Below, piece after piece: positions 15,798 through 38,122 of a stretch of DNA of 51,610 nt. The DNA comes from a virus. The stretch is taken from positions 1-51,610 of the IMG/VR virus record IMGVR_UViG_3300008107_000554, one strand, 5' to 3'. Numbering within the stretch: the first letter of the stretch is position 1; each line of letters begins with the position of its first letter. The notes under the pieces are model-generated. The model was not told the origin of the DNA. It searched no databases and saw nothing but the letters and a program-made list of their open reading frames with translations. Made by a program: the position numbers and the translations under genes.

Positions 15798-15801
<4 letters not shown>

Positions 15802-18677
15802 GGCACTGCCCGCAGCTGACCCAGCGTCATGCTCTCCGGCCGGTTATCCTCATTCTCCAAGAGAGTGTGGAGCCGGTCGTGCGCAAGGTTGATGCCAACC
15901 ACGTAGGTCTGGGGGAGCCGCAGTTCTGGGATGCCCCGGCCAAGGATGGCCTTCTTGGATGTAGGGGTGGCGTCGATGCTTTCCGACACGAGCACGTCGC
16001 TAAACTTCTTCCAGTCCCCACCACGGCTGGCCATCCACTGACGGAAGTGAGTGCGGTCCACGAGCAGGATGCCCCGATCGTTCTTGGCATTGGTGGCCTT
16101 GCGGTGCAGGTCGAACCGCACCCGGACCTCTGCGCGTGGCAGCCTGCTGGGATCGTAGATCGGCAGATCGTGGCCGTCGATGTGGGAGACGAGAACAGTG
16201 GCAGCACGCATCTCGTTGAGGTACTCACCCAGCAGATCGAACTCATCCAGCTTGGCGGCGCTGATGCTGCGGCGGATCATGCCAGCCTGCTCCAGTGCGA
16301 ACTCAGTGGCCTTGGTGTAGTCGTAGTCCACCCAGCCATTCTGCACGGCGATCATGTTCATCAGATCGGATAGCACGATCATGACTTCCCAGTACCGCTC
16401 CTCGCCGCTGAACCGAACCTTGTACTTCTGCTCGAAGGCGACCATGTGGTCGGCGATCATCTTGGTAACCGCAGCCTCGCCCATAGCCACCAGCCACATG
16501 AGGATCAGCAGGCCGACGTGCCCGTAGTTGCGGGTGATGGTGTTGTAGAACTTGCGCCCCACATCCGTGCTCTTGGTGAAGATGTCCGAACTCTCCAACG
16601 AAAGCTCCAGCATCCGGGCCATCTGCGCGTCAGTCTCGAAGTTACCAGCCAGCAGCTTGCCGCCCATGGGGCGGTTGGTTGACAGGGTCACAGGCGTAGC
16701 CCATGTCTTTGGGTCACGCTCCTCCACCCGGGCATTGAGGCGGCTCTTGTCCCGGCCCTGCGTCACACCGTAGATGAAGTCACCGACCTCTTTATCGGGC
16801 ATCATGGTGGTTTCGTCGATCGTCATGGGCAGGTTGTTCAGGAACGACAGGCGGGTGAACAGCGCGTTCTGTGTGTACTTAGACTGGAAGTGCAACTCGA
16901 CAGGGTCGCCCCAGATGGACTGCATCGCCAGCTGTGCCAGCGACTTGCCGCTGCCCGTCGGCCCGTAGAGCGAGAGCACTGCACCCTTGAGCCCGGTGAA
17001 CTGGTAGAGCGGGGCGGACATGGACACACCCATAGCGAAGATGTGGGCCTTGAGCCCGGCAGCTTCCATGAGCTTGGTGATCTTGATCCACTTCTCGTGG
17101 TCACCCTTGGAGCCATACATCCCAGTGCCGATGCGCTGCACCGCAGAGGATAGCACGACATCCTCGACCACGGTCTGGCCTTGCTCGTCCTTACGGACTT
17201 GCTTGTCGCCGAGCACGAACAGGGAGTTCTCCTCCTTCCACCCCAGCGTGGTGTAGAGGTTGGTGGTTGTTTTGAGCCTGCGCAGTTCGTCCATGTAGGA
17301 GCGGAGCATGAATTGAAACCTCTCGGTTATACCCTTGAAGGGCAGCACGATACCTTGGTCAGCGATGGCTGTGGGGAACTCGCGGTTCCCGTCGGCGAGG
17401 TAGGCTTGTCTGAACTTGAGTTCCTGCCAGCCTTTGTGCGGGCGCTTCCAGTGGTAGCGGACCACCTCGTAGCCAAGGGCTTCATCCTTGCCGTAGCTTA
17501 CAGGGTACAGGTCGAACGGCACGACCATGATGTCAGTGTCGTCGATGGTCTGGGCGATGCCGCCCTTGGCCACACGCTTGAAGCCCGGAGGCATGGGCAC
17601 TTCGTGTGCCACTTCGTCAAGCGCATCCTCGGCTGGGCCTTCGGCCTCAGTCAGCTTGCGTCCGATCTGACAGGGCGACGTGATCTTGCCAGCGAAGGGG
17701 CACTTGTTGCAGCCAGCCGAACGCAGGTCCTTGAACTTAGCACAGGTGGTTGGCCCCGTGGCCTTGCCTCTCCACTGCTCCACCTTGAGGACAGTACGAC
17801 TATAGTCGTAGTCCGGGTGCTGGTCTGACCACGCAACAGCCGTCCCTTCCGGATCGTCGCAGAAGGCAGCGATGCCAAGCAGCGCGTACCAGAACGGCTC
17901 CTCCACATCCTTTTGGTTATTGGCAGCCCAGCGCACCTGTGCGCAGCCCTCGATGATGTTGCCCGCAACGGCAGGCTCGTACTCCTGCCCGGACGCAAGC
18001 GCTCCCGTGATGCTCGACACAGGCTTGACCTGCGCAGCGAAGCCGCGGGGAGTGCCGCCTAGCAGGCGCTGCTTTGTGATGTAGGGGAGCAAGACTTGAC
18101 GCAAATCGTCGGGGTCGTTGTCGGGTGCGTCCTTGATGAGCGTCACTTCCGCCCCGTTCTTAGGGTTGTGAGTACCCACGGGGCGCAGCACTCGGGCGCT
18201 GTCGGCGGTCACCGCCGGGTCGATCTCGAAGCCATGCTGCTTTGCGCACTCCTTGAGTGCATCAGCCAGAGGCTGCCAGTCTGCGGGCGCAAGCGCCTCG
18301 GTCAACGGCCAGTACACGTGGAGACCACGGCCTGAGTTGACCACCATGGGTGGCGGCAAGCCACTGGCTTTGAGGAATGTCTTGAGGGCCTTGGCGCCCT
18401 CGCGCTGGTCGGCGAAGGGCTTGTCCTCGCCACAGTCGATGTCAATGAACAGAGCTTTGGTCTGCTTGACGTTCACCTGCTTGCGATTGCCCGCCTCGAT
18501 GAACGAGGACATTGCGTAGTACACGTTACCACCAGCAATGTCGATCCGGATGACCGCGCCGGACAGCGCGTCTATGGTCTCGTAAGACTTCTGCGCGCGT
18601 TTGTCCGGGTTGATAACTGTCGCTACGTAATACCCTTCGTCGGGCAGCACCCTGCCCAAGAACTCTGCTGTGTCCAT
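15798..18677 (-). CDS. PrimPol (archaeo-eukaryotic primase) fused to replicative helicase-type ATPase
   Basis: 959 aa from ATG 18677; a GTG at 18713 would add 12 residues but sits inside a GC hairpin, so I prefer the ATG. The N-terminal AEP-type primase has a catalytic DxD in LFIDIDCG (D79, D81), SGRGLHVYW near 120 and the SARVLRPVGTHNPK segment. A Cys cluster (CAKFKDLRSAGCNKC, then PC) at about 317-340 could bind metal. The C-terminal ATPase has Walker A GPTGSGKS (about 571) and an acidic Walker B MTIDETTM (about 615), of the DUF927/VapE-like kind. It would prime and unwind at the phage replication fork. It is the last gene of the minus operon. Confidence 0.88.
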
Positions 18678-18697
18678 GTCCCTACCCTGCTCGGTGT

Positions 18698-18730
18698 GTG
18701 GGGGGCTCGACACCCCCCACCTTTATTTTA
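18698..18730 (+). terminator. Hairpin with T-rich tail, oriented against the minus operon
   Basis: An 8-bp perfect stem (GTGGGGGG / CCCCCCAC) with a 7-nt loop at 18698-18720 is followed on the plus strand by CTTTATTTTA. On the minus strand the downstream side is not T-rich, and the stem sits between the HTH gene and the primase start, where it could act as a leader structure instead. Confidence 0.5.
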
Positions 18731-19010
18731 CGAGAAGCAACTTCTGCAATGCAATCAGTCTGTCGTCCTGATCCATCGCCACGATGGCCGGTGCCGGCCA
18801 CTCGTGTTCTGTCATAACACGGAGCATGTCCTTTAGGATAGCCCGCGTTTTCGTGGCGTTGCGCTCGGCAGGGTGGCCCTCTTTCTTCCAGTTGTAGTAG
18901 GTTACCCGGGATACCCCGAGTAACCTTGCCATCTGGGTGTGCGTGAGCAGCATGTGCCTACGGAGCGCGTCGATCTTCTCGAACGTGATCCGCTTCTGCT
19001 CAGTCGTCAT
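18723..19010 (-). CDS. Small helix-turn-helix DNA-binding protein
   Basis: 95 aa. Residues about 18-45 (LTHTQMARLLGVSRVTYYNW) form a clear Cro/CI-like or XRE-type helix-turn-helix. The rest is helical and ends in LQKLLLVK. It could regulate phage transcription or mark DNA near the replication genes. The start overlaps the 3' end of the SSB-like gene by 11 bases, so the two are co-translated. The stop is TAA, followed closely by the hairpin before the primase. Target sites are unknown. Confidence 0.8.
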   Translation of the reverse strand: MTTEQKRITFEKIDALRRHMLLTHTQMARLLGVSRVTYYNWKKEGHPAERNATKTRAILKDMLRVMTEHEWPAPAIVAMDQDDRLIALQKLLLVK

Positions 19011-19986
19011 CGTCCATGTCCGACATCAGGTTGGCGATCTCGTCGGCGAGGGAGCCAGTGCCAGCCTTCTCCACCTTGGGAGCAGCGGCCTTGGGAGCAG
19101 CAGCCTTCGGCTTGGGGGCCGGAGCTTCCTCCTCCTCCTCGACGGGTGCAGCCTTCGCACCGAACCCACGCTTGGGTGCCGGGGCTTCTTCTTCCTCGAC
19201 CGGAGCGGGCTTCGGCTTGGCAGCGACAGCGGCGGGCTTGGCGGCAGCCTTCGGCTTGGCTTCGGCCTTGGGCTCAGCGGCGCTTTCTTTCTCGCCAGTA
19301 ATCTCCATCACCTTGTCTGAACCGAACAGCCCTTCGACCGCAGCGTACTCACCCTCGTCGAGGAAGCCGCCGTATTTGAACACCAGCTTGGGGTAGCTGG
19401 CGTCAGTGTCGAACGTGACCACGGTCTTGACTGCCTCGACCGGGATGCCCCGCATCTGCAGTTCCTTCTGGTAGGCACCCAGACCCTTGAGCGCAGAAGC
19501 CGGGACTTGCAGCAGGTAGATCGGACCTTCGGGGTCGTTGGACGCCACGACAGCCAGACGCTTGTGGTCAGCGCAGGCTTTGACCTGCGTGCCCATCGGG
19601 GTGATCTTGGAACCCCATGCGTTCATCGGGCAGCCAGCGCAGGTGTCATTCTGCGGGTCGGTGCTCTCACCATGCGGGCGGATGCCGTCCAGCGAGTAGC
19701 AGTCAGGCGACACAGGCTCACTGTCCGGGGTCCACTGCTTGGCGTAGTAGGTTTTCGACTTGCCGGGGTTAGCACCCACGATTATGACCGACAGCTTGGT
19801 GTCCTCAAGCACAGTCTCGGCACCGCCCTCGATGATGCGGAAGCGGCTGCCCTTGATGGAGATGCGCGGGAACTCCGCGCCACCTGCCAGACCACCGGCC
19901 AGAGCGGCCGACAGAGCAGAGGGTTGACCCACCACACGTGCGAGGTGTGCCGGGATTTGGATGTTGGAAGGTACGATGTTGCTCAT
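19000..19986 (-). CDS. Single-stranded-DNA-binding-like protein with acidic C-terminal tip
   Basis: 328 aa. The core (about 35-210) is a beta-rich fold with a Cys/His set (DTCAGCPMNAWG, then CADH) that may bind zinc. Then comes a long low-complexity linker of Ala, Lys, Pro and Glu repeats (about 228-305). The extreme C-terminus is MSDMDDDD, the acidic tail that SSB proteins and T7 gp2.5 use to contact replication partners. Position among primase, helicase, nucleases and polymerase fits an SSB. No sequence-level match to a named family is claimed. A GAGAGGA ribosome site precedes ATG 19986. Confidence 0.7.
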   Translation of the reverse strand: MSNIVPSNIQIPAHLARVVGQPSALSAALAGGLAGGAEFPRISIKGSRFRIIEGGAETVLEDTKLSVIIVGANPGKSKTYYAKQWTPDSEPVSPDCYSLDGIRPHGESTDPQNDTCAGCPMNAWGSKITPMGTQVKACADHKRLAVVASNDPEGPIYLLQVPASALKGLGAYQKELQMRGIPVEAVKTVVTFDTDASYPKLVFKYGGFLDEGEYAAVEGLFGSDKVMEITGEKESAAEPKAEAKPKAAAKPAAVAAKPKPAPVEEEEAPAPKRGFGAKAAPVEEEEEAPAPKPKAAAPKAAAPKVEKAGTGSLADEIANLMSDMDDDD

Positions 19987-23423: not shown

Positions 23424-23643
23424 TACGTGTCTCCATGGGCATCCACCCGAGGGGTTTCTCAAGAACAAAGTTCAGTACATCTGGGTCATCCGCGCGCCAT
23501 TGTCTGGCGCGATAGCCCCAGCCTTTGCCACTACGCTCCGCGAACGGTACGACTCCGGCATGCTGGTAGTAGAGGACCACTGGGTTCTCCCGAGTGGCCT
23601 CGGGTGCAGTGTCCATTGGTTGGAAGGTGGGTAAGGTAGTCAT
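23416..23643 (-). CDS. Small phage protein of unknown function
   Basis: 75 aa from ATG 23643. GGAG lies upstream and the ATG overlaps the polymerase fragment's stop as GTGATG. It contains MDTAPEATRENPVVLYYQ and WGYRARQWRADDP, a Trp-rich small domain, and ends LGWMPMETRND. The last codons form the translation start region of the nuclease gene. It is wedged between polymerase and nuclease; role unknown. Confidence 0.75.
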   Translation of the reverse strand: MTTLPTFQPMDTAPEATRENPVVLYYQHAGVVPFAERSGKGWGYRARQWRADDPDVLNFVLEKPLGWMPMETRND

Positions 23644-23873
23644 CACGTGTCTCCATAGTTGTCAGCCGTGCCTGCCTCGCAGGCCACGGGCAAGTCGGGT
23701 GCCCAAGTCGGGGCGGTGGACATGATCTCGACGATGTCCTTCTCTGCCTGCTCAGCCTTATCCTCAGGCACTACGCAGACGTTCTCGTCATGCACTTGGA
23801 AGGCGACGTGGTAGCCAGCGTCTCGGATCGCCAGCATCTGCTCTGCCACAACGATGCGTGCCAGTGCTATCAA
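23643..23873 (-). pseudogene. DNA polymerase C-terminal fragment carrying motif C, out of frame with the main ORF
   Basis: About 76 aa starting at a TTG, with no ribosome site of its own. It reads ALARIVVAEQML, then FQVHDENVCVV, where HDE is the family A motif C (metal-binding Asp). It is the natural continuation of the polymerase ORF at 23788-25401 but lies in the +1 frame, overlapping it by 86 bases. The segment that usually precedes ALAR in this family (a YGG..LTEN-type stretch) is not found in either frame, so a small deletion is more likely than a single-base slip. Confidence 0.75.
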
Positions 23874-25401
23874 ACATGCGGCGGTCTTGGATGTAGGTGA
23901 ACTGCCGATCGGTGGCCGACAGGCCGTGGTAGCGCAGCTTCATCCCGTTGGGCAGGAGGACACCATCAGCATCGTAAGTCAGGATGTTACCGATCCGCCC
24001 CTTGCGCCCAGCCACCATGCTGGACAGGGCGTAGCCACACTCACCCCAGAGCTTGACGATCTGATGGTAACCCGTGCGGTAGGTGCGAACCAGACGCTCG
24101 ATGTCCTCCTCCGGCAGGTTGACGGGTGGCTTGCCACGCTTGAGCGTCAGCCCAAACTTATCAGCCGACATGCCGTAGCCCAGCCCAAGGATGGCTGCCT
24201 TGCCCACGTGACGCTCCAGCATGTCGGCCTTGGTGATCTTGCGACCGTAGAACGTCGTGGCAAACTCTGAGTAAACGTCCCGGCCCTCACGGAACCACTG
24301 CACAAGGTCAGCCTGCCCGGCAAGGTAGGCCACCATGCGGGCTTCGATCTGGCTGCTGTCACAGCTGATGATCTTGTATCCCTCGGGTGCCCGGAGGGCA
24401 TGGCGCAGCACACCACCACGAGGCAGGTTCTGTAGGTTGAGCTTGTCCCCACCAGAGAAGCGGCCAGTGTGGGCACCATAGTAGTTGAGCATGATGGGCA
24501 GCCGACCACGTGACTGCACCCCCAGCAGAGATGCTGTGCGCGTCTCCTCCAGAGTGGACTTGAGCCCCAGCCGTGCGGCCACCAGCGTCTGGACGATGGG
24601 GTCGTGGTGATCTTGCAGTGCAGTGAAGGCGAGGTCGGTCTTGGCGAAGGCGTAAGTCTCCTTGCCCGTGGTCCCGCTGATCTTGGTCGGTGGCTCCACC
24701 CCACGCTTGCGCAGCAGCTTGGCGAACTTGTCGTTCGACATGATGTACTCTTTGCCCTTGCCACCGAGGGTGTCGAGCAGTGCCTGCTTCTCTGCCTGCA
24801 CCACGACGAGGTGCGCAGCCAGCTTGTCCTCGTCCAACTCCACTGTCGGCTCGGTGTACATCCGGATGGCGGTGTCGATGACGCGCATCTCTGAGACAGG
24901 GAACCCCTTACGCAGCTTCTTGAACAGCTGGTAGGTCAGCTCGATGTCGTTGGCACAGTACTTCATGTACGCAGCCAGCTCTGCTGGGGAGAAGTGCCTG
25001 CGGCGTTTGCCCAGTGCTTGGATAACTTCCTCGCCCTTGGCCCCCAGCCCGTAGTGCTGAGCCAGTGCCTTGAGGCTGCCGCCCACCGTCGCCTGATGCA
25101 GAGGACGCGCCATAGATAGCGTGTCCAACCACAGCTTGGGCTTGATGCCGTAGTGCCACGAGAGGATAGCCCCGTCGAACATGGTGTTGTGGCAGAGGAT
25201 GGCCTTGTCGCTGTAGTCCAGTGACTTGAGGAACCTGCCCACGTTGTCACCACTGTAGGTATCTACGGGCCCGTCGTTGACCTTGACACCCACCCCGATC
25301 ACCTCGAACAGGTCAGACCTGACGTAGGCTTCCGTTGTGATCTTGGACAGCGAGTATTCCCTGTCGTAGAAAGTCTCGAAGTCGATGGTTACAATGTCCA
25401 T
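23788..25401 (-). CDS. Family A DNA polymerase with 3'-5' exonuclease domain, frame-disrupted before motif C
   Basis: 537 aa from ATG 25401 (TGATG overlap with the preceding gene). Exonuclease motifs: DFE in VTIDFETF (residues 7-9), NTMFD in the second motif (about 75-80) and YCAND (YxxxD, about 145). Polymerase motif A is CDSSQIEAR (about 345) and motif B is RHVGKAAILGLGYG (about 395). After FTYIQDRR the ORF runs into unrelated sequence and stops about 30 codons later, while motif C lies in another frame (23643-23873). Unless frameshifting or protein complementation occurs, the product lacks motif C and would be inactive as a polymerase. It is expected to be the phage replicase. Confidence 0.88.
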   Translation of the reverse strand: MDIVTIDFETFYDREYSLSKITTEAYVRSDLFEVIGVGVKVNDGPVDTYSGDNVGRFLKSLDYSDKAILCHNTMFDGAILSWHYGIKPKLWLDTLSMARPLHQATVGGSLKALAQHYGLGAKGEEVIQALGKRRRHFSPAELAAYMKYCANDIELTYQLFKKLRKGFPVSEMRVIDTAIRMYTEPTVELDEDKLAAHLVVVQAEKQALLDTLGGKGKEYIMSNDKFAKLLRKRGVEPPTKISGTTGKETYAFAKTDLAFTALQDHHDPIVQTLVAARLGLKSTLEETRTASLLGVQSRGRLPIMLNYYGAHTGRFSGGDKLNLQNLPRGGVLRHALRAPEGYKIISCDSSQIEARMVAYLAGQADLVQWFREGRDVYSEFATTFYGRKITKADMLERHVGKAAILGLGYGMSADKFGLTLKRGKPPVNLPEEDIERLVRTYRTGYHQIVKLWGECGYALSSMVAGRKGRIGNILTYDADGVLLPNGMKLRYHGLSATDRQFTYIQDRRMFDSTGTHRCGRADAGDPRRWLPRRLPSA

Positions 25402-25691
25402 CACACCACATCCCCCCTAAGGCGCCGCGCTGTACGCCACGCTGTGTATCTCATCTGCGTCTCATGATCTTCTGATAGGAACTGCAACATCTGCACCAGC
25501 CCATTGGCGGACATGTTGCTCTTAGCTGCCAGCTCGTCGAGCGCATACTTCGCTACTTGCGACGCGATCCTACTGTCCAGCTCTGCTGATACAATATGGC
25601 TCATACTAGCTGTGTCTTCGCGTATGCGTACATCCGCATATGGTATGCTCATATACGACCGTACCGCGTCCTTCATGTCATCTGGATTCAT
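25401..25691 (-). CDS. Unknown small helical protein upstream of the polymerase
   Basis: 96 aa, predicted mostly helical and charged (MNPDDMKDAVRSYMSI; LDSRIASQVAKYALDELAAK). No motif recognised. The stop overlaps the polymerase ATG, so the two are translated together. The ribosome site is weak. Confidence 0.65.
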   Translation of the reverse strand: MNPDDMKDAVRSYMSIPYADVRIREDTASMSHIVSAELDSRIASQVAKYALDELAAKSNMSANGLVQMLQFLSEDHETQMRYTAWRTARRLRGDVV

Positions 25692-25697
25692 CCTGTC

Positions 25698-26024
25698 TCA
25701 CCCTGTCTTATGCCTGTCGTCTGTCCCTATTGCACGGCGCTCGTATGAAATAAGAAACGCAATGCAACATGCTGCGTGTGCGAGGTGTGAATACCCCGTC
25801 TCCGGATCGTTATCTTGACCACGCCACCACGCCCACATATGTCGCATGAGTGCACCGAATGGACGGTGCCACGCCATACCCTTCTCCCAGTTACGTTCAC
25901 TATACTTAACAGCACCGTAAGTCAACACTCGTGCTGTTTCTTCTAGCAGTTCAGGTGGGATCAGGTCGAAGCGCAGCTTGTCGCCGTCGAACTTGACGCC
26001 TTCTTCGAGTGGGGGCTTGGTCAT
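25698..26024 (-). CDS. dATP/dGTP diphosphohydrolase N-terminal-like protein (DUF5664 type)
   Basis: 108 aa from ATG 26024, chosen for the perfect GGAGG nearby; the frame is open further back but crosses an inverted-repeat element. It carries the family signature FDGDKLRFDLIPPE, then TYGAVKYSERNWEKGM, RHMWAWWRGQDNDPETG and SHLAHAA, an all-helical domain annotated as the N-terminal domain of phage dATP/dGTP diphosphohydrolases. It probably adjusts the nucleotide pool for replication. Whether this short form alone is active is unknown. Confidence 0.82.
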   Translation of the reverse strand: MTKPPLEEGVKFDGDKLRFDLIPPELLEETARVLTYGAVKYSERNWEKGMAWHRPFGALMRHMWAWWRGQDNDPETGYSHLAHAACCIAFLISYERRAIGTDDRHKTG

Positions 26025-26042
26025 TCGATCCTCCAGTGGGGA

Positions 26043-26130
26043 TCGTGAGGGGCGCTGGTGGATGATAAGCCGTAGCGCAGTCTGATCTTCGACCAACACA
26101 AAACCGCAGGTTTCGCTGCGCCCCTCACGA
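26043..26130 (-). other. 88-nt structured element bounded by a 13-bp perfect inverted repeat
   Basis: TCGTGAGGGGCGC (26043-26055) and its exact complement GCGCCCCTCACGA (26118-26130) enclose 62 nt, which contain a second short hairpin (AAACC GCA GGTTT, 26101-26113). It fills the only sizeable gap in this part of the minus operon, just upstream of the GGAGG of the DUF5664-type gene. It could be a leader RNA, RNase site, small RNA or protein-binding site. Confidence 0.6.
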
Positions 26131-29803: not shown

Positions 29804-30120
29804 TTCATGTGTCCTCTCATACGGTGGAGCGTGCACAATGCAGTCACCACCTGTTGCAGTGTTCCTTCAATAGGTGGTGGTGCGTCGCTGGGACGGCCCC
29901 CGGGCAGGTCCCCGAACAGTATACCACGAATTGGTGTGTCGTTGTTCTCCTTTCTGATGAAACCAATAGCGGCGAAACGGTAGGGTGAGCGACGGCGCGA
30001 CTTGACATCCCACTCGTTGACCTTCCGAACGAACACCCCGATGTCCACCGCGAAGCTCTCCTGCATCAGCTTGGCCTTGCCACCCGGCTCGAACCCATAG
30101 CCTTCGGGAAAGTCCACCAT
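29800..30120 (-). CDS. Unknown small protein next to the VWA gene
   Basis: 106 aa from ATG 30120, overlapping the VWA gene's stop (TGATG). It begins MVDFPEGYGFEPGGKAKLMQ and includes RSPYRFAAIGFIRKENNDTP and a Pro-rich GRPSDAPPPIEGT. No known domain. Direct coupling to the VWA gene suggests a shared role with it. Confidence 0.65.
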   Translation of the reverse strand: MVDFPEGYGFEPGGKAKLMQESFAVDIGVFVRKVNEWDVKSRRRSPYRFAAIGFIRKENNDTPIRGILFGDLPGGRPSDAPPPIEGTLQQVVTALCTLHRMRGHMK

Positions 30121-31247
30121 CACACACGCACCCGGCAGTGCTCACCGAAGGGAGCCGTCATGTCAGTGGTCATGGCCCAGATAACCGGGGTGGTGCAGTC
30201 GTCAGGGTAGGGGGTGTAGCCATCAGTCAGCACGATGGTGCAGGCGAGGTTGTCAGCATGACCCTCTGCATCGAGGAAGTCGAAGGCAGCACGCACATCA
30301 GTGCCGCCACCACCGTGGAAGCTGATGGACACAGTGTCATCAGGCAGGAAGCAGTCGTAGTGGGTGACCACGGCATCGAAGTAGACCACATGCAGCTTCT
30401 CAGGACGCAAGTCCTCATGGACAGTGCGAACCTCGGCAGCCATCTGTGCAAGGATGTCATCACCAATGGAGCCGGAGCAGTCCACGAGGAAAGCGATCGG
30501 ACCCATGCGCTCACCCGTCCGGCTCGGCATGTAGAAACCCTGAGACAGGAACCTACGGTTGGGCCGGGCGAAGCTGCGCTCGTCAGTCTTGTGCTTGACC
30601 ACGAACTTCTGGAGCACCTCGCGCCAGTCAACCGTTGGATTGAGGATTCTGTCCACAAGCCGGGCCATGCCAGCCGACAGTTTGCCCATCATCTTGGCAG
30701 CCTGTGCAGCCTGTGCCACCTTGACCTTCCACTCGGCAGCCTCTTGGGCTTGGTCAGAGGCAGTGCCCTCACCATCCTCAAGGTCTTGGCCAGTGCCACC
30801 CATGTCACCGCCGCCACCCTCGCCATCACTCTCGGGCAGCAAGGTGTAGATGTGCTCACTGACACCCTGACCTGCGTCATAGAGCGCCTTGTTGAGGCAG
30901 CCACCCTCGATGAACTTACCAATGCCCTCGTCGGTCAGCAGTTGGTTGATGACGTAGTCAGCGGCCTTGTTCCAACGCTTAGGGTCACGGGACTGACGGC
31001 GGAAGTTGTGCTCCAGCATGGGGTGCATGCACTCATGAGCCACGAGGAACTTAAGCTCCTCATCAGACAGGCCGGAGACAAACTCCGGGTTGTATAGCAC
31101 ACGCTTGCCATTGGTGGCAGCGGTAGGGATGATGTCAGAGTAGGTGTGCGGCATACCCAGTGCGATAGCACCGACAAAGGGATGCTCAAGGATGAGGCTG
31201 GTCTTGGCCTTGGCCAAGCGGGTCTTGAGTGTGTCGAGAGACTGCAT
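30120..31247 (-). CDS. VWA-domain protein with zinc-metallopeptidase-like N-terminus (DUF2201 type)
   Basis: 375 aa. The N-terminal domain has HECMH (71-75) with a further His at 80, the zinc-peptidase pattern of this family. A Gly/Glu-rich linker lies near 155-170. The C-terminal von Willebrand A-like domain has a complete MIDAS set: DCSGS (D256, S258, S260), T316 in GGGTD and D342 in LTDG. Such proteins pair with MoxR-type AAA ATPases, and one lies four genes upstream in the operon. It may act as a metal-dependent adaptor or protease in remodelling; substrate unknown. AGGAG precedes the ATG. Confidence 0.88.
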   Translation of the reverse strand: MQSLDTLKTRLAKAKTSLILEHPFVGAIALGMPHTYSDIIPTAATNGKRVLYNPEFVSGLSDEELKFLVAHECMHPMLEHNFRRQSRDPKRWNKAADYVINQLLTDEGIGKFIEGGCLNKALYDAGQGVSEHIYTLLPESDGEGGGGDMGGTGQDLEDGEGTASDQAQEAAEWKVKVAQAAQAAKMMGKLSAGMARLVDRILNPTVDWREVLQKFVVKHKTDERSFARPNRRFLSQGFYMPSRTGERMGPIAFLVDCSGSIGDDILAQMAAEVRTVHEDLRPEKLHVVYFDAVVTHYDCFLPDDTVSISFHGGGGTDVRAAFDFLDAEGHADNLACTIVLTDGYTPYPDDCTTPVIWAMTTDMTAPFGEHCRVRV

Positions 31248-31252
31248 GTGTG

Positions 31253-31672
31253 TTACTCCTGTGTGTTGTTAAGAAAGTCTTTGATCGAGGTGCCGTGGTC
31301 TACCGCTCTGAGCCTGCGGTCCACACCATACAAGTCCCAGAGATCGTGCTGGTCGCTGGCCCCGCCGTCAATCTCCACCGTGATGTCATTGTATTCCTCA
31401 CCGATACGGACGAAGGCAGTGCCAGCACCTCGATCAGCCGCAGCACCAAGCAAGGCATGGTGACACTTCACATCATCGTAGTTGTCATACCACTTGACAT
31501 TCTCGAAACTTGCGTGGAGCAGGGTCATCACATCGACGATCTCAGTGATGCTGTAGTGCGCCAAGTCCTCAGGCGAGATCGTATTGTTGAGCCTGACCTC
31601 AGCAAGGAAGGCGATGACCGCCTCCCGATTGGCAAAGGCCATGCCTATAGCCACGTCACTGTAGTATCCCAT
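31253..31672 (-). CDS. Unknown protein of the MoxR/VWA cluster
   Basis: 139 aa from ATG 31672, with GGGAGTG nearby; a GTG three codons up is possible. It begins MGYYSDVAIGMAFANREAV and includes ISPEDLAHYSITEIVDVM and FVRIGEEYNDITVEIDGG, an alpha/beta mix. No named domain recognised. Close spacing to the VWA gene implies co-expression. Confidence 0.65.
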   Translation of the reverse strand: MGYYSDVAIGMAFANREAVIAFLAEVRLNNTISPEDLAHYSITEIVDVMTLLHASFENVKWYDNYDDVKCHHALLGAAADRGAGTAFVRIGEEYNDITVEIDGGASDQHDLWDLYGVDRRLRAVDHGTSIKDFLNNTQE

Positions 31673-31677
31673 GTGTG

Positions 31678-32538
31678 TCACACTCCCATAAAAGCGCCCA
31701 TCCGGGCCATGATGTCAGAGGCTTCGTCGATCTTGGACTGACGCAGCACCGGGTCGTTGACCACGGCATCCTTGCTCAGACCAGCCAGCTTAGCCTCCAC
31801 CTCGTAACGCATAGCTTCGAGGTTCGGGTCGTCCATAATATTCAACCGAGGCAACAGCTTACACAGTTCTGTGATGTGCTCAAGCGTGCTCTCATGGAAC
31901 CGAGACTTGGGGTCGTCGATCTTGGAGAGACGCTCAACCATATGCTTAACACGATCGTAAAGGCGTTGCCAAGCATCACGCATGGCGATGCCAGAGTTTT
32001 CTTCCACCCTGCGCTGGAGGTCAGCCTTGATACTGTCAAGCTCATCGTCTGCCAGTTGGACACGGAAGTCAGCAGTCGGCACAGGCAGGACCACCAAGTC
32101 CATGCTGAACTTAGACCGCAGGTCGCGGACATCGGGGTAGTCCTCGATGTTGTAGAGGGTGCCGAGGAACCGCTGAGCCGTGGTCTGGAGGGACGGGTAG
32201 TCCGCCAAGAACTTACTCACCACCTGCTCCCACTCAGACTTGCGCTTGCGGAAGGTGGTCATGAAGCTGAGGTAGTTGGAAGTGGGCAGCATGTGTGTGT
32301 TGTTCAGCCCCCACGGCAGGGTGTTGGTCAGGAAGTCCTTGCGGATGTCACCTGTCATGGTGTGGATGTTGGCGAGGCTGTCACTCATGGGCAGCAGCTT
32401 CTTGTGGTAGTTACCCACGTCATAGCCAGCGCCGTTGATGTCGGATACTGCCTTGGTGGCCTTCTTGTCCAGCTTGCGTGCTGTCCACTGGGAGATGTTA
32501 AGCTGCACCAGCAGTGCACGATCAGAGAGATGTGTCAT
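31678..32538 (-). CDS. Helical protein of the MoxR/VWA cluster, DUF3150-like
   Basis: 286 aa, almost entirely helical with many charged residues (ISQWTARKLDKKATKAVSDI; FRKRKSEWEQVVSKFLADYP). It resembles the helical DUF3150-type proteins found next to MoxR/VWA genes in phages and plasmids; the match is by overall pattern only. An AAGGA leader precedes it. It may be a structural partner of the ATPase/VWA pair. Confidence 0.65.
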   Translation of the reverse strand: MTHLSDRALLVQLNISQWTARKLDKKATKAVSDINGAGYDVGNYHKKLLPMSDSLANIHTMTGDIRKDFLTNTLPWGLNNTHMLPTSNYLSFMTTFRKRKSEWEQVVSKFLADYPSLQTTAQRFLGTLYNIEDYPDVRDLRSKFSMDLVVLPVPTADFRVQLADDELDSIKADLQRRVEENSGIAMRDAWQRLYDRVKHMVERLSKIDDPKSRFHESTLEHITELCKLLPRLNIMDDPNLEAMRYEVEAKLAGLSKDAVVNDPVLRQSKIDEASDIMARMGAFMGV

Positions 32539-32553
32539 GGTCTGTGTCCTTGT

Positions 32554-32859
32554 TTAAGAGATACGGTGAGCAGTGAGATCAGCCAGCACTTCGTCTGCTG
32601 ACCGGGCGGTCCAGCCATCGGGGATACTGATCGGGATTTCCCCGGTCAGGTAGTTGTCACTCGCGTCATCGGTGGCGATGATCCGGGCGTTGAACGAGGT
32701 GGAGTAGTCCATCTCATCAACTAAGTCCCATATGGACTTGCCACCATGATCGAGGTCAGCGCGGACTTTCTCCACGGCGGCAGCGAGGTTGTCTGCTTCC
32801 ACCTCAACGTGGCCATAGACACTGACGTCATGGGCTAGGGTGAAGTTGAATGTGGGCAT
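32554..32859 (-). CDS. Unknown small protein of the MoxR/VWA cluster
   Basis: 101 aa. FNFTLAHDVSVYGHVEVEAD leads into a helix (LAAAVEKVRADLDH) and an acidic C-terminal region: a small beta-alpha-beta fold. AAGGAG lies upstream of the ATG. No motif. Confidence 0.65.
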   Translation of the reverse strand: MPTFNFTLAHDVSVYGHVEVEADNLAAAVEKVRADLDHGGKSIWDLVDEMDYSTSFNARIIATDDASDNYLTGEIPISIPDGWTARSADEVLADLTAHRIS

Positions 32860-32862
32860 GTG

Positions 32863-33072
32863 TTACTCCTTGTTGATGAGACGGAGATAGGCTTGGTAAG
32901 CGGTCCACTGGTCAGGGAACTGTTGCTTGAGGTAGTCGGTGAGGGAGAGCATACGATCGGACCAGTCACGACTGTCCCGATACTCGATATACTCACCAGT
33001 CATGCGGCCAAGGCCACCGAACCCGTCGATGGCCTTGATGTAGACGAGATACCCTGCAAAGGTGCCTGTCAT
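32863..33072 (-). CDS. Small unknown protein after the MoxR gene
   Basis: 69 aa from ATG 33072, which lies 1 base after the MoxR stop. MTGTFAGYLVYIKAIDGFGG is followed by a helical YLKQQFPDQWTAYQAYLRLI. The frame is open much further upstream only as a shadow of the MoxR gene. Ribosome site weak; translation is likely coupled to MoxR. Confidence 0.6.
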   Translation of the reverse strand: MTGTFAGYLVYIKAIDGFGGLGRMTGEYIEYRDSRDWSDRMLSLTDYLKQQFPDQWTAYQAYLRLINKE

Positions 33073-33073
33073 A

Positions 33074-34066
33074 TCAGAACAGCACCGACTGATGCTTGAT
33101 GGACCAGTCAATGAAGCCCTTGGTCGAGGTGACGGCGGGATCACGACGGACAGCCATCGACATAGCCAGCACTGAGAACTCAGCCGGGCAGCGGGACAGG
33201 TAAGTGACAGCCCGGTCGATGTTGGCCTGAGAGATGCGTGATGCGATGGCACCAGACAGAGCGTAGAGAGTGGCCGGATCGGACGGCACATCGGCACCAT
33301 CGGGGTTGAGTAGGATGGCATCAGGGTTAGGCAGCTTGCGGTAAATCTTGAGGAACCCCACGAACTCAGCCGCAGCCCCCTCACCAACGGCACCCTTGAA
33401 GCAGTCGAACTCAGCCTCAGCAGGGACAGCACCGAGCACAGCACTGACACCCTCAGCCCACGAACGAGGCGTTGGGTTCTGGTCCTTGTTGGCATCGAAG
33501 TCATGGAGCAGACCGGGACGGAAGCGGATGAAGGCCACGACCTCAGACTTGACACCATGTGTCAGTGCCCACGACGACCAGTCATCGAGGTTGGTGTCGA
33601 ACTCTAGGACAGTCTCACGATTGCGGAGGTGGGACAGCACCCGGTTAGCCCCGGCACGATCCGACTGCCTGTTACCAGTGGAGACGACAGTCCAGCCCTT
33701 GGCAAGGGGTGTGCCGTGGAGATTGCGTGCTTGGCAGATGTTAGCCAGCACTTTCTGGATGTCGGCCGGGGCTTGGTTACGATCATCGAAGCAGAGCACA
33801 CCACCACGACCGTCGTCGTAACGAGAGCCAACGGCAGGGAACCAGTCGGGGATCATGTAACGCAGGGTCTCGCCCCCAATGACAGGGATGCCGAAGTCCT
33901 CGACCAGCATGGTCGGCAGGTGACGCTCGACGTAGTGCAGACCGAGAGCCTCAGTCACAGACTGAACGAGGGTGGTCTTGCCACCACCCGGCGCCCCCTC
34001 GATAGCCACGGTGCGGTTGATCGAGATGAGGTCTTTAAGTGTGTCAGACAGAAGGGATGGACGCAT
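33074..34066 (-). CDS. MoxR-like AAA+ ATPase
   Basis: 330 aa, normal length for a MoxR family ATPase. Walker A GAPGGGKT (24-31); Walker B VLCFDDRNQAP, in which the usual DE is DD (94-95); sensor 1 in VVSTGNRQ; an Arg-finger-like LSHLRNR. The C-terminal lid is helical. MoxR ATPases work with VWA-domain partners as chaperone-like complexes that remodel target proteins; the VWA/metallopeptidase is encoded four genes downstream. Gene order suggests these and the intervening genes form one functional unit. The leader contains TGGAGTAA. Confidence 0.9.
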   Translation of the reverse strand: MRPSLLSDTLKDLISINRTVAIEGAPGGGKTTLVQSVTEALGLHYVERHLPTMLVEDFGIPVIGGETLRYMIPDWFPAVGSRYDDGRGGVLCFDDRNQAPADIQKVLANICQARNLHGTPLAKGWTVVSTGNRQSDRAGANRVLSHLRNRETVLEFDTNLDDWSSWALTHGVKSEVVAFIRFRPGLLHDFDANKDQNPTPRSWAEGVSAVLGAVPAEAEFDCFKGAVGEGAAAEFVGFLKIYRKLPNPDAILLNPDGADVPSDPATLYALSGAIASRISQANIDRAVTYLSRCPAEFSVLAMSMAVRRDPAVTSTKGFIDWSIKHQSVLF

Positions 34067-34103
34067 TGTGTATTACTCCATGTGTTGTGGCTTGTCTCAT
34101 CAG

Positions 34104-34145
34104 TGCCACGGTAGCCATCCGTGGCAGACTGGGGTTGCCCCCAGT
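34104..34145. other. Pair of hairpins in the MoxR leader
   Basis: Two adjacent perfect stems occupy the roughly 100-nt gap before the MoxR gene: TGCCACGG/CCGTGGCA with a 7-nt loop (34104-34126) and ACTGGGG/CCCCAGT with a 4-nt loop (34128-34145). There is no T-tract on the minus strand, so mRNA processing or attenuation is more likely than simple termination. Confidence 0.55.
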
Positions 34146-34167
34146 TTCGACTCATAGGGAATTTGCC

Positions 34168-35178: not shown

Positions 35179-35385
35179 TCAAAGTCCTTTCAAATGTGAG
35201 AGCCACTTGTAGACAGTGGACTGGCCGACGTTGAACTGAGCGGCAGCCTCCTTGACAGAGACACCCTCCACTCTGACGAGGCGCAGCACTTCGGCTCTCG
35301 TGGTGTCGTCGAGACCATAGGCTGGGTGGTAATCAGGGACGACTATGAGATAGTCGGGGCTGGATGGTGTAAAGGCCAGCCGCAT
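35179..35385 (-). CDS. Small helix-turn-helix protein, transposase-like fold
   Basis: 68 aa from ATG 35385 (TGATG overlap). The C-terminal half, TRAEVLRLVRVEGVSVKEAA then FNVGQSTVYKWLSHL, is a clear helix-turn-helix of the homeodomain/HTH_23 type. It is the second gene of the operon, next to the control region, so it is a good candidate for the factor that binds the repeats at 35.8-36.4 kb; that link is inference. Confidence 0.78.
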   Translation of the reverse strand: MRLAFTPSSPDYLIVVPDYHPAYGLDDTTRAEVLRLVRVEGVSVKEAAAQFNVGQSTVYKWLSHLKGL

Positions 35386-35696
35386 CACAGTGCCACCTCT
35401 ACCGGAGCAAGGCCGGGGTTGAACTGGATGTTAAGATGAGTGACGCCATAGTGCTGCTTGAGGTCGTGACGGTCACAGACAGTGATCCGGCAGTTGTTAA
35501 GCGGGGAAGACTGGTCGACCACTACGAGTTCATGACCAACGGTGTAGTCATAGACGGCATCAGCCTGACTGATGTAAGGGCGGCGAAGTGGCTTGACAGT
35601 GAGGGACTTGGTGTAAACCTGAGCAGCGAGGTCAGCGAGTTTGGTCCAGTTGGCCATGATAAGGGTCCATAGTTGTGTGTTAAGATTGATAAGCAT
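35385..35696 (-). CDS. First gene of the minus-strand early operon, unknown
   Basis: 103 aa from ATG 35696; an internal ATG at 35657 (MANWTKLADLAAQV) is equally natural, and neither has a good Shine-Dalgarno site. The product has a basic, beta-rich middle (TVKPLRRPYISQADAVYDYT) and NNCRITVCDRHDLKQHYGV. Function not recognised. A promoter-like sequence lies about 45 bases upstream. Confidence 0.65.
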   Translation of the reverse strand: MLINLNTQLWTLIMANWTKLADLAAQVYTKSLTVKPLRRPYISQADAVYDYTVGHELVVVDQSSPLNNCRITVCDRHDLKQHYGVTHLNIQFNPGLAPVEVAL

Positions 35697-35741
35697 TGTC
35701 AGGACCAGACTGTTTACAAGGTAGAGTCGGCCTGAGCCATG

Positions 35742-35770
35742 ACCTTAGCCGATTCCGCTGGCCGTGTCAA
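35742..35770 (-). promoter_or_regulatory. Sigma70-type promoter for the minus-strand operon
   Basis: On the minus strand TTGACA (35765-35770) is followed after 17 bases by TAAGGT (35742-35747). The -35 is consensus and the -10 weak. It lies about 45 bases before the first gene and shares the string TTGACACGGCC with the promoter near 37.2 kb. Confidence 0.55.
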
Positions 35771-35795
35771 GTTTCGGAGGGTAGGGAGGTTTAAT

Positions 35796-35824
35796 CCGCG
35801 CGGATAATGGGTTAGTCCGCGCGG
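35796..35824. repeat. Two CCGCGCGG sites in a 21-bp direct repeat
   Basis: TTARTCCGCGCGG occurs at 35791-35803 (TTAATCCGCGCGG, within palindromic ATCCGCGCGGAT) and again at 35812-35824 (TTAGTCCGCGCGG). These GC palindromes stand out in AT-rich DNA just upstream of the early promoter and could be operator sites. Confidence 0.6.
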
Positions 35825-36260
35825 GAACTGTGTAAAGTATCTACGAATTGGGCGCGCGATAGGCGAAGTATCTTTACAGTATGGATAGTGCAAGTGTTTG
35901 ATTTTGTTAGCGTTTTTTGGGGTGTATCTAAACTATCTACGATTTTTCAGAAGATAGACCCACTAAAAGAGCGCAACTGGAGCGGTTGTATTGTAAAGGT
36001 TTACACTCAACCGAGTTGATTGACGATTTCCGTCACGTATCTTCAAAAAAAACGTGTATATTATAGATAGTTTAGATACTTTACTACTACTACACACTGG
36101 TTTGATATGCTTTACACAAGCTAACCCCTTGGTTTCATTGGCTTTTCCATTTTGGTGTAAACATGTAAACTATCTAAATTTTACACATTCCGTGTAAAGG
36201 TAGTGTAAAGGTAAAATAGATAGTTGTTTAATATCAATGACTTACTGGGTGTAAAGACAT

Positions 36261-36340
36261 AGGCCCCCGACAAATGGCACTCGATACGAGACGCTTTACA
36301 CTAGAGCTACAGGCCCCCGACGTATGGCGAGTGTAACGAG
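36261..36340. repeat. 30-bp imperfect direct repeat, 50-bp period
   Basis: 36261-36290 and 36311-36340 both begin AGGCCCCCGA, then share ATGGC at the same offset and end ACGAG. They interleave with CTTTACAC sites. Likely protein-binding or origin repeats. Confidence 0.7.
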
Positions 36341-36405
36341 CAAACTTAACACGCAACCGCTACCTATGCGGGCGGTGTAAAGGTGTAAAGGTGTAGAGCA
36401 GACAA

Positions 36406-36438
36406 CAAAAAACCCGCCCGGTGGTTAGCCGGGCGGGT
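36406..36438 (-). terminator. Rho-independent terminator after the small membrane-protein gene
   Basis: On the minus strand a 9-bp perfect stem CCCGCCCGG/CCGGGCGGG with a 7-nt loop (36413-36437) is followed by TTTTTT. It lies directly after the stop at 36444 and should end transcripts of the 37050-36444 genes. Confidence 0.92.
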
Positions 36439-36443
36439 CAGGG

Positions 36444-37221: not shown

Positions 37222-37491
37222 CTGCTAATTTATAAAAATCTGCGACAATTTATAACAAAAAACGCGCGCCGCGCGGTCGCAGGCAGGCATGGGGGGTGGG
37301 GGGTTGGACAGCGGTCGCGCGGCCCCCCGCTATTGTAGTAAACCTCTTACAACACAACCCAAAAATACCAATCTTTACACCTGTACATCACCCGAACATT
37401 TTATAACACCCCTGCCAAAAATTTTCCCGGCCCAAAAAACCAAATCTTTACACTATTGACCGCCCCCGCCTCCAAGAGTTACCATCCCCCC
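37222..37491. other. Non-coding region before terS
   Basis: No gene supported. It holds ATTTATAA repeats, a GC palindrome-rich stretch (37262-37280), a G-run GGGGGGTGGGGGG (37291-37303), and two CTTTACAC sites (37373, 37446) matching the control-region motif. The last lies 39 bases before the terS ATG and may drive or regulate it; a packaging start site could also lie here. Confidence 0.5.
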
Positions 37492-37968
37492 ATGTACATG
37501 AGCCCTGTTCACACCAAATGGACCGATCGGTTCGCCTTTGAACTCGCCCTTCTCATGGAAGGCAGCGGGGAAAAGCTCGACGAACTGCTGGATCGGCACG
37601 AGTTCGAGGCATCAGACCTCCTCACCTTCAAGAACGACGCCACTTTTCTCAAGAAAGTGGAGGCTTACAGGGAGGAAGTACGCACCAAGGGCCTCACATT
37701 CAGGGTCAAGGCGCGTGCACAGGCCGAAGAACTGCTCAAGACCAGCTGGATTCTCATCCACGACCCCATTGTGAGCCCCGCGGTGAAGGCCGACCTCATC
37801 AAAAGCACGGTCAAGTGGGCCGGACTGGACACAACCCCCGCCGGAGAGGGTCAGAACAACGCCGGTGGCGTCACGATCAGCATCAATTTGGGTGGACAGA
37901 CGCTGGATGTGACCGCCAAACCCGCCCCGACCGAGGTCGAGGACGCCGATGTCGTCGAAGAAGATTGA
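37492..37968 (+). CDS. Terminase small subunit-like protein
   Basis: 158 aa from ATG 37492; 37498 is possible and a TTG at 37456 unlikely. Helical N-terminus (MSPVHTKWTDRFAFELALLM), then KARAQAEELLKTSWILIHDP and VKADLIKSTVKWAGL, the helix-rich layout of small phage terminase subunits that recognise packaging DNA. The C-terminal tail is acidic. It lies directly before the large subunit gene, which supports the call; no strict motif exists for this family. Shine-Dalgarno weak. Confidence 0.72.
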   Translation: MYMSPVHTKWTDRFAFELALLMEGSGEKLDELLDRHEFEASDLLTFKNDATFLKKVEAYREEVRTKGLTFRVKARAQAEELLKTSWILIHDPIVSPAVKADLIKSTVKWAGLDTTPAGEGQNNAGGVTISINLGGQTLDVTAKPAPTEVEDADVVEED

Positions 37969-38122
37969 TCCGATCGAGGTCTGCAAGCTGGACAGCACAT
38001 TTGCAGTGCAAGCGCTCGTCGCCACCCTACGGGACACCAATAAGTCCTACAGAATCATGAAAATTCCACGGCCGAAGCCTAGGTCTCCCCTCTATACGGT
38101 GATTATCTACAATGCCGCTTGA
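37949..38122 (+). CDS. Small ORF bridging the terminase subunit genes
   Basis: 57 aa, MSSKKIDPIEVCKLDSTFAV, then a basic RIMKIPRPKPRSPLYTVI end. It overlaps the last 20 bases of terS and the first 11 of terL in another frame, filling the gap between them. No clear ribosome site of its own; it may be made by translational coupling. Unrecognised; moderate support from position only. Confidence 0.5.
   Translation: MSSKKIDPIEVCKLDSTFAVQALVATLRDTNKSYRIMKIPRPKPRSPLYTVIIYNAA

Follow-up and report, generated by a model that had tools for sequence, protein, structure and literature searches.

Replication origins composed of iterons and recognized by helicases related to Cch and SaPI Rep are already known. 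Sections of the source PMC7581432 describe recognition of iterons by the C-terminal domain of SaPI Rep and Cch2, the presence of a DUF927 domain in Cch, and a gene ahead of cch for LP1413, a small wHTH protein, while part of PMC5862659 describes DUF927 domains fused to primases in mobile elements. Phage P4, plasmid pRN1, and Pseudomonas phage Rollin provide further systems for comparison.

In the present study the whole of an IMG/VR virus record, 51,610 bases in length (hereafter the window), was analysed, and its largest gap without an open reading frame (ORF) of at least 60 aa was found to hold an array of two interleaved families of short sites, designated words A and B (Table 1). The array is probably the replication origin of the phage (at a rough probability of 0.78), where word B would be read by a DUF927 helicase and word A by a 95-aa helix-turn-helix (HTH) protein, designated HTH95, with word A being reused at the late promoter. 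The SaPI Rep and SCCmec Cch-Cch2 origins, as outlined in sections of PMC7581432, resemble this arrangement in a DUF927 helicase as initiator (Cch, SaPIbov1 Rep) and in short iterons; in the phage, however, the primase is fused to the helicase, the array contains two word families instead of one, and it lies (35.7–36.4 kb) 17 kb from the helicase gene (15.8–18.7 kb), whereas the SaPI and SCCmec arrays are directly downstream of theirs. LP1413 of SCCmec, described as a ssDNA-binding protein, can be likened to HTH95 by gene position.

The alpha protein of phage P4 is also a primase-helicase, and its C-terminal winged helix binds the ori repeats according to parts of PMC4234260. The P4 primase is of Toprim type, whereas the primase of the present phage is archaeo-eukaryotic and LigD-Pol-like. 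A further group of sites in P4, crr, lies outside ori. In plasmid pRN1, described in the same parts of PMC4234260, a small DNA-binding protein (orf56) is followed in one operon by a primase-polymerase-helicase (orf904), as in the phage, but the origin of pRN1 consists of a stem-loop and lacks iterons, and the helicase belongs to SF3. Rollin (OR577172, L167/L164) has the same HTH-primase-helicase order, with a 104-aa HTH-like gene ahead of a primase-helicase that is 28.6% identical, and carries at positions 1–1149 an AT-rich array of three words (AAAAGGTAG, TATGCAA, TAGCTAA) unrelated to those of the phage. The non-coding gap 19113–19807 of Rhizobium phage TM3_14A was rejected as a comparable array, since it contains weak repeats only. 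No report of the present array was found in the literature searched, and no similar DNA was found in the phage collection; two interleaved word families with separate putative readers, the pairing of a residue with a base, and a site shared with the late promoter look new.

Table 1. Positions of the features of the putative origin, its proposed readers, and the terS upstream region in the window.
Feature	Position (strand)	Remark
Primase-polymerase/DUF927 helicase, 971 aa, Cch/SaPI-Rep-like	15798..18713 (-)	Proposed initiator and reader of word B
Putative winged-helix region at the helicase C-terminus, residues 802-971	15801..16310 (-)	Predicted model
Codon of helicase residue 923, Ile in the window	15945..15947 (-)	Associated with base 3 of word B
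HTH95, 95-aa HTH protein	18723..19010 (-)	First gene ahead of the primase-helicase; putative word A reader
Non-coding gap with the array	35697..36443 (.)	747 bp, AT-rich; proposed replication origin
A boxes GTGTAAAG/CTTTACAC, exact, n=8	35830(+), 36110(-), 36192(+), 36203(+), 36249(+), 36294(-), 36375(+), 36383(+)	One-base variants besides
Remaining 4 copies of GTGTAAAG in the record	35367, 37373(-), 37446(-), 22580(-)	
B boxes [CG]TATCTA, n=7	35837(+), 35924(+), 35933(+), 36064(-), 36073(-), 36170(+), 36217(-)	Span 35837..36223
Composite TGTAAAGTATCTA/TGTAAASTATCTA	35831..35843 (+)	A box and B box with 2 bases in common; second exact copy 36164-36176
Terminator-like hairpin, 11 pairs, T tail	36411..36439 (-)	Opposes leftward transcription entering the array
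A box upstream of terS	37373..37380 (-)	Counterparts in relatives
A box upstream of terS	37446..37453 (-)	3 bases upstream of the candidate terS -35
Candidate sigma-70-type terS promoter TTGACC-18-TACCAT	37456..37485 (+)	9/12 consensus letters, close to shuffle background; ATG at 37492

Word A, GTGTAAAG, is matched 12 times in the whole 51.6-kb record against 0.77 matches expected, and none of 100 shuffles reached 12. Eight of these copies lie within 35830–36390, in agreement with the preliminary description of the sequence, which had reported at least eight copies of the 8-mer or its complement in about 560 bases and two more ahead of terS, both of which are present on the minus strand. In 1000 local dinucleotide shuffles of the gap the mean was 0.04 copies (maximum 2) for the eight A boxes and 0.16 (maximum 2) for the seven [CG]TATCTA boxes, and only four GTGTAAAG and three [CG]TATCTA are found in the 50,873 bases outside it; equal density of the 8-mer elsewhere, which had been named as a point against a dedicated code, is thus not observed. 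The joined 13-mer was also recovered at both positions previously given for it, together with the reverse one-mismatch copy (36073–36085) and two further one-mismatch copies at 35927 and 36064. Of the 19 arrays compared, 6 show the two-base overlap of A and B boxes, 8 times in total; the offset thus recurs without being universal.

The gap has a GC content of 45% versus 60% for the record, and the arrays of relatives range from 32 to 54%. An iteron origin would be expected to show a short site repeated many times within a small region, with an AT-rich segment next to the iterons, and both features are found here. The leftward genes to the left of the array encode the primase-polymerase/DUF927 helicase, HTH95, a SNF2 helicase, an exonuclease, and a family A DNA polymerase, while the late genes run rightward, with terS at 37492 and terL at 38112, and the hairpin at the right end of the array has an aligned counterpart in most relatives. 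The GC-skew check proposed earlier turned out to be only loosely compatible with an origin, as the cumulative minimum lies 1–9 kb left of the array and not at it in all 10 genomes and the maxima are scattered.

Relatives were obtained from a TerL scan, as the best 80 of 524 confirmed loci. Conservation of the array, the absence of which had likewise been named as a contrary result, is seen in its position: in close relatives it occupies the corresponding position and is rich in A boxes, and 21 such arrays contain CTTTACAC 131 times and ACTATCTA 64 times, where the remainder of these loci would predict 2 and 0.7, respectively. In distant relatives GTGTAAAG is scarce, and an AT-rich gap at the same position carries two overrepresented, differently spelled words, the letters of the words drifting between lineages; a de novo word search in 28 arrays recovered an A-like word and, in most of them, a B-like word too. 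Among the 41 contigs with both flanking genes of the array, the largest internal gap (no ORF of 60 aa) sits between these genes in 38, where its length is 248 to 1380 bases; the exceptions are G043, G054, and G058, with arrays still present in the last two. Dense CGGCTAC/CGTAGCC repeats occur at about 7600–8900 in L098 and L099, with up to 27 copies per 800 bases.

Within the 260 bases that precede terS, 33 of 39 genomes (all except G004, G005, G029, G031, G038, and G054) contain word A, as CTTTACA or the variant of the given genome, while word B shows no excess around terS, any XATCTA occurring there 9 times in total in the 39 genomes. The promoter candidates of terS in relatives are closer to consensus (TTGACA/TATATT) than that of the window. 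Several roles of the A boxes in transcription were considered and rejected. As -35 elements they fail, since the scan gave 3 promoter-like sites versus 2.1 expected and an A box takes part in just one of these; the combination TTTACA-TAGATA with spacing 19, present in 7 of 19 loci, fits sigma-70 spacing poorly; and a fixed-distance activator site is contradicted by the distance from the terS A site to the -35, which ranges from 3 to more than 80 bases. It can also be observed that the terS promoter candidate abuts the start codon, as does TTGACA-N17/18-TATATT of distant relatives, as in a leaderless message, and that left of the terS A box (window 37290–37370) there are a conserved G-run/C-run hairpin and a GTAGTAAACC..GACCCAAAAA element, at near-constant spacing to this A box in many relatives.

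Two HTH proteins had been suggested as candidate binders of the array. The protein encoded at 35179–35388 was found in just 4 of 13 compared genomes and therefore cannot be a general binder; nor does it provide the conserved repressor gene adjoining the operators that a repressor/operator switch would have. The other candidate, HTH95, stands as the likely reader of word A. In most lineages word A stays near ACTTTACA and the HTH helix SR[MV]TY[YH] is likewise kept. In genome G051 the A word is CGGTTACA (six exact copies in the array, one just upstream of terS, and two elsewhere in 54.7 kb) and the HTH contains TRMTYYRW in place of SRMTYYGW with a changed loop after it, while residue 923 of its helicase (Tyr) and word B (AATCTA) are the same as in its relatives. 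G012 has ACTATACA (CTATACA) in both the array and the terS region together with TRATYYGW in the HTH, and L074 has AGTTTACA in both regions, on a contig without the HTH gene; G013 may be regarded as a weak, suggestive case. Versus a strict rule, the arrays of G015 and L047 favour ACTTGACA and that of G009 has mixed spellings, the terS site of all three being CTTTACA. The putative link between word A and HTH95 leans mainly on G051 and G012. The fold predicted for HTH95 (pLDDT 91) is similar to those of antitoxins and repressors of Xre type, with no match at E 0.001; its sequence is weakly similar to lambda-type small terminases (PDB 1j9i, E 0.043; 7lw0, E 0.034), and no match to it was obtained at E 0.01 in the phage collection.

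The proposed reader of word B matches Pfam DUF927 with 96 bits (cut-off 22.6), and its nearest solved structures are Cch of SCCmec (PDB 5dgk, E 7.7e-10) and a SaPI protein (8tch, E 2.8e-8). Its similarity to NCBIfam Cch1 (E 3.5e-13, 49 bits) is under the curated cut-off of 700, and by these sequence matches the helicase is a relative of Cch and not Cch1 itself. The primase part is a LigD_Prim-Pol domain of archaeo-eukaryotic and not of Toprim type. For the C-terminal 170 residues a model of moderate quality (pLDDT 79, pTM 0.73) shows a wHTH-like order of elements, and its top PDB fold match is again Cch 5dgk, with a weak E of 0.062 and a probability of 0.97.

The spelling of word B is associated with one residue of this C-terminal region: base 3 of the word (ACxATCTA) is T when residue 923 is Ile, Met, or Ser and A or G when it is Tyr or Phe, in 38 of 38 scorable genomes; the residue is Ile in the window, Ser in G044 and G029, and Tyr in G011, for example. 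The word is A[CG]TATCTA in the window, and its natural versions are ACTATCTA and ACAATCTA. Arrays were assigned to class T when TATCTA occurred at least 3 times and at least twice as often as AATCTA and GATCTA together, and to class R in the reverse case; the first 28 arrays comprised 8 T, 18 R, and 2 unscored ones (G012 with 1 and 2 sites, G002 with 2 and 1). The pattern was spotted in alignments of this first set, which it fits in 26 of 26 genomes, and the rule was fixed in writing before 12 and later 3 more contigs were fetched. Among the 12, all 10 scorable genomes fit (3 Ser/T; 7 Tyr or Phe/R), G055 being unscored as a contig without the helicase gene and G054 because its array, which when viewed afterwards showed AATCTA with Tyr at residue 923, lies outside its largest gap; among the last 3, both scorable contigs fit (Ser/T) and the third has no array. 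The lineages L055-57, L074, L239, and L232, whose contigs are without array or helicase gene, were excluded from the residue test; L232 has Asn at residue 923.

In 36 genomes, which include near-copies (at 95% identity the 36 helicases reduce to 30 distinct ones), residue 923 is the sole class-separating column among 779 variable helicase columns. The scan of 4071 columns of 17 proteins in the same genomes gave only one other, residue 253 of the 31678–32538 product, which separates on fewer rows (9 T, 23 R), while no column of HTH95, TerS (99 variable columns), or TerL (215 variable columns) separates the B classes. Residue 934 and other C-terminal-domain columns of the first set were lost as genomes were added, and an early Fisher test (5/144 C-terminal-domain columns versus 32/3889 others, p 0.009) was superseded by the 36-genome scan.

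The association of residue and base might reflect shared ancestry or exchange of linked pieces and not contact, which is considered unlikely, although near-identical genomes inflate the counts and the class label and residue 923 each switch just three times on the tree, together, so that a sign test on these independent switches (p 0.25) is unable to reach significance. With three pairs only, the strength of the association rests on the column scan and the forward test and not on independent events. A purely ancestral origin is opposed by the AU test, which in the first set rejected a single clade for the T genomes (p 0.00016), by the 17 kb between the array and the helicase gene, by the persistence of residue 923 when columns such as 934 fell away with more genomes, and by the fit of 12 of 12 later genomes.

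It is improbable that the array serves regulation only, as a set of operators or activator sites through which an HTH protein controls the late operon and the leftward early genes while replication begins at another site. Such a function would agree with the presence of A boxes ahead of terS in 33 of 39 genomes, with the early-gene start that adjoins the array on its left in L017 and L031, and with the resemblance of the HTH95 model to Xre/repressor folds; however, word B tracks the replicative helicase and not an HTH, it is not enriched at terS, the number of sites and the several words exceed the needs of two promoters, and 38 of 41 contigs are left without another large non-coding region for an origin. 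Of the earlier proposal of a protein-binding code serving as either an iteron origin or a switch of early and late genes, the code and the origin are supported by the helicase-linked word B, the position, the sole large non-coding gap, and the Cch/SaPI-Rep-like putative initiator, and a possible switch for word A only, by its sites upstream of terS. That the small terminase reads the array as a packaging site (pac/cos) is a far-fetched explanation: the array lies 1.1–1.7 kb from terS and HTH95 has its weak likeness to lambda-type small terminases, but no TerS or TerL column follows the B classes and HTH95 belongs to the replication operon, TerS being another protein.

According to the preferred reading of the array as an origin, the two site families are interleaved within an AT-rich, transcription-poor gap, where the putative winged helix at the C-terminus of the helicase would bind word B, and the helicase would assemble there, melt the AT-rich DNA, and prime synthesis. 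Word A (CTTTACAC) would be bound by HTH95, probably a loader or regulator, which may also occupy the A boxes upstream of terS and in this way link the origin to the late promoter. Judged from the sequences, the chances are about even that the two iteron families represent two keys with separate readers drifting independently, one wing residue setting one base, and the HTH key being reused at the late promoter, which would give replication and late expression a specificity in common. If true, this would identify, for a broad group of phages that are uncultured and represented only by contigs, an origin, an initiator, and a rule of specificity that can be read off; it would also open a sequence-only route to origins and their readers in metagenomic phages and supply natural protein/DNA pairs with which helicase/iteron recognition in the DUF927 family is directly testable. 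A drift of words together with their readers could, in addition, prevent related phages from using one another's origins.

Several other features of the leftward region of the window were observed. A type II hammerhead ribozyme is located in the early region at 34085–34152 (-) (RF02276, 40 bits, gathering 37), and genes for an AAA ATPase, a DUF3150-like protein, and a DUF2201 protein (metallopeptidase/VWA) are clustered and conserved at 30120–34066 (-). A dATP/dGTP diphosphohydrolase-like gene lies at 25698–26099 (-) (Pfam PF18909), and the family A DNA polymerase at 23643–25404 (-) is encoded in two overlapping frames, both of which have counterparts in the long relatives compared.
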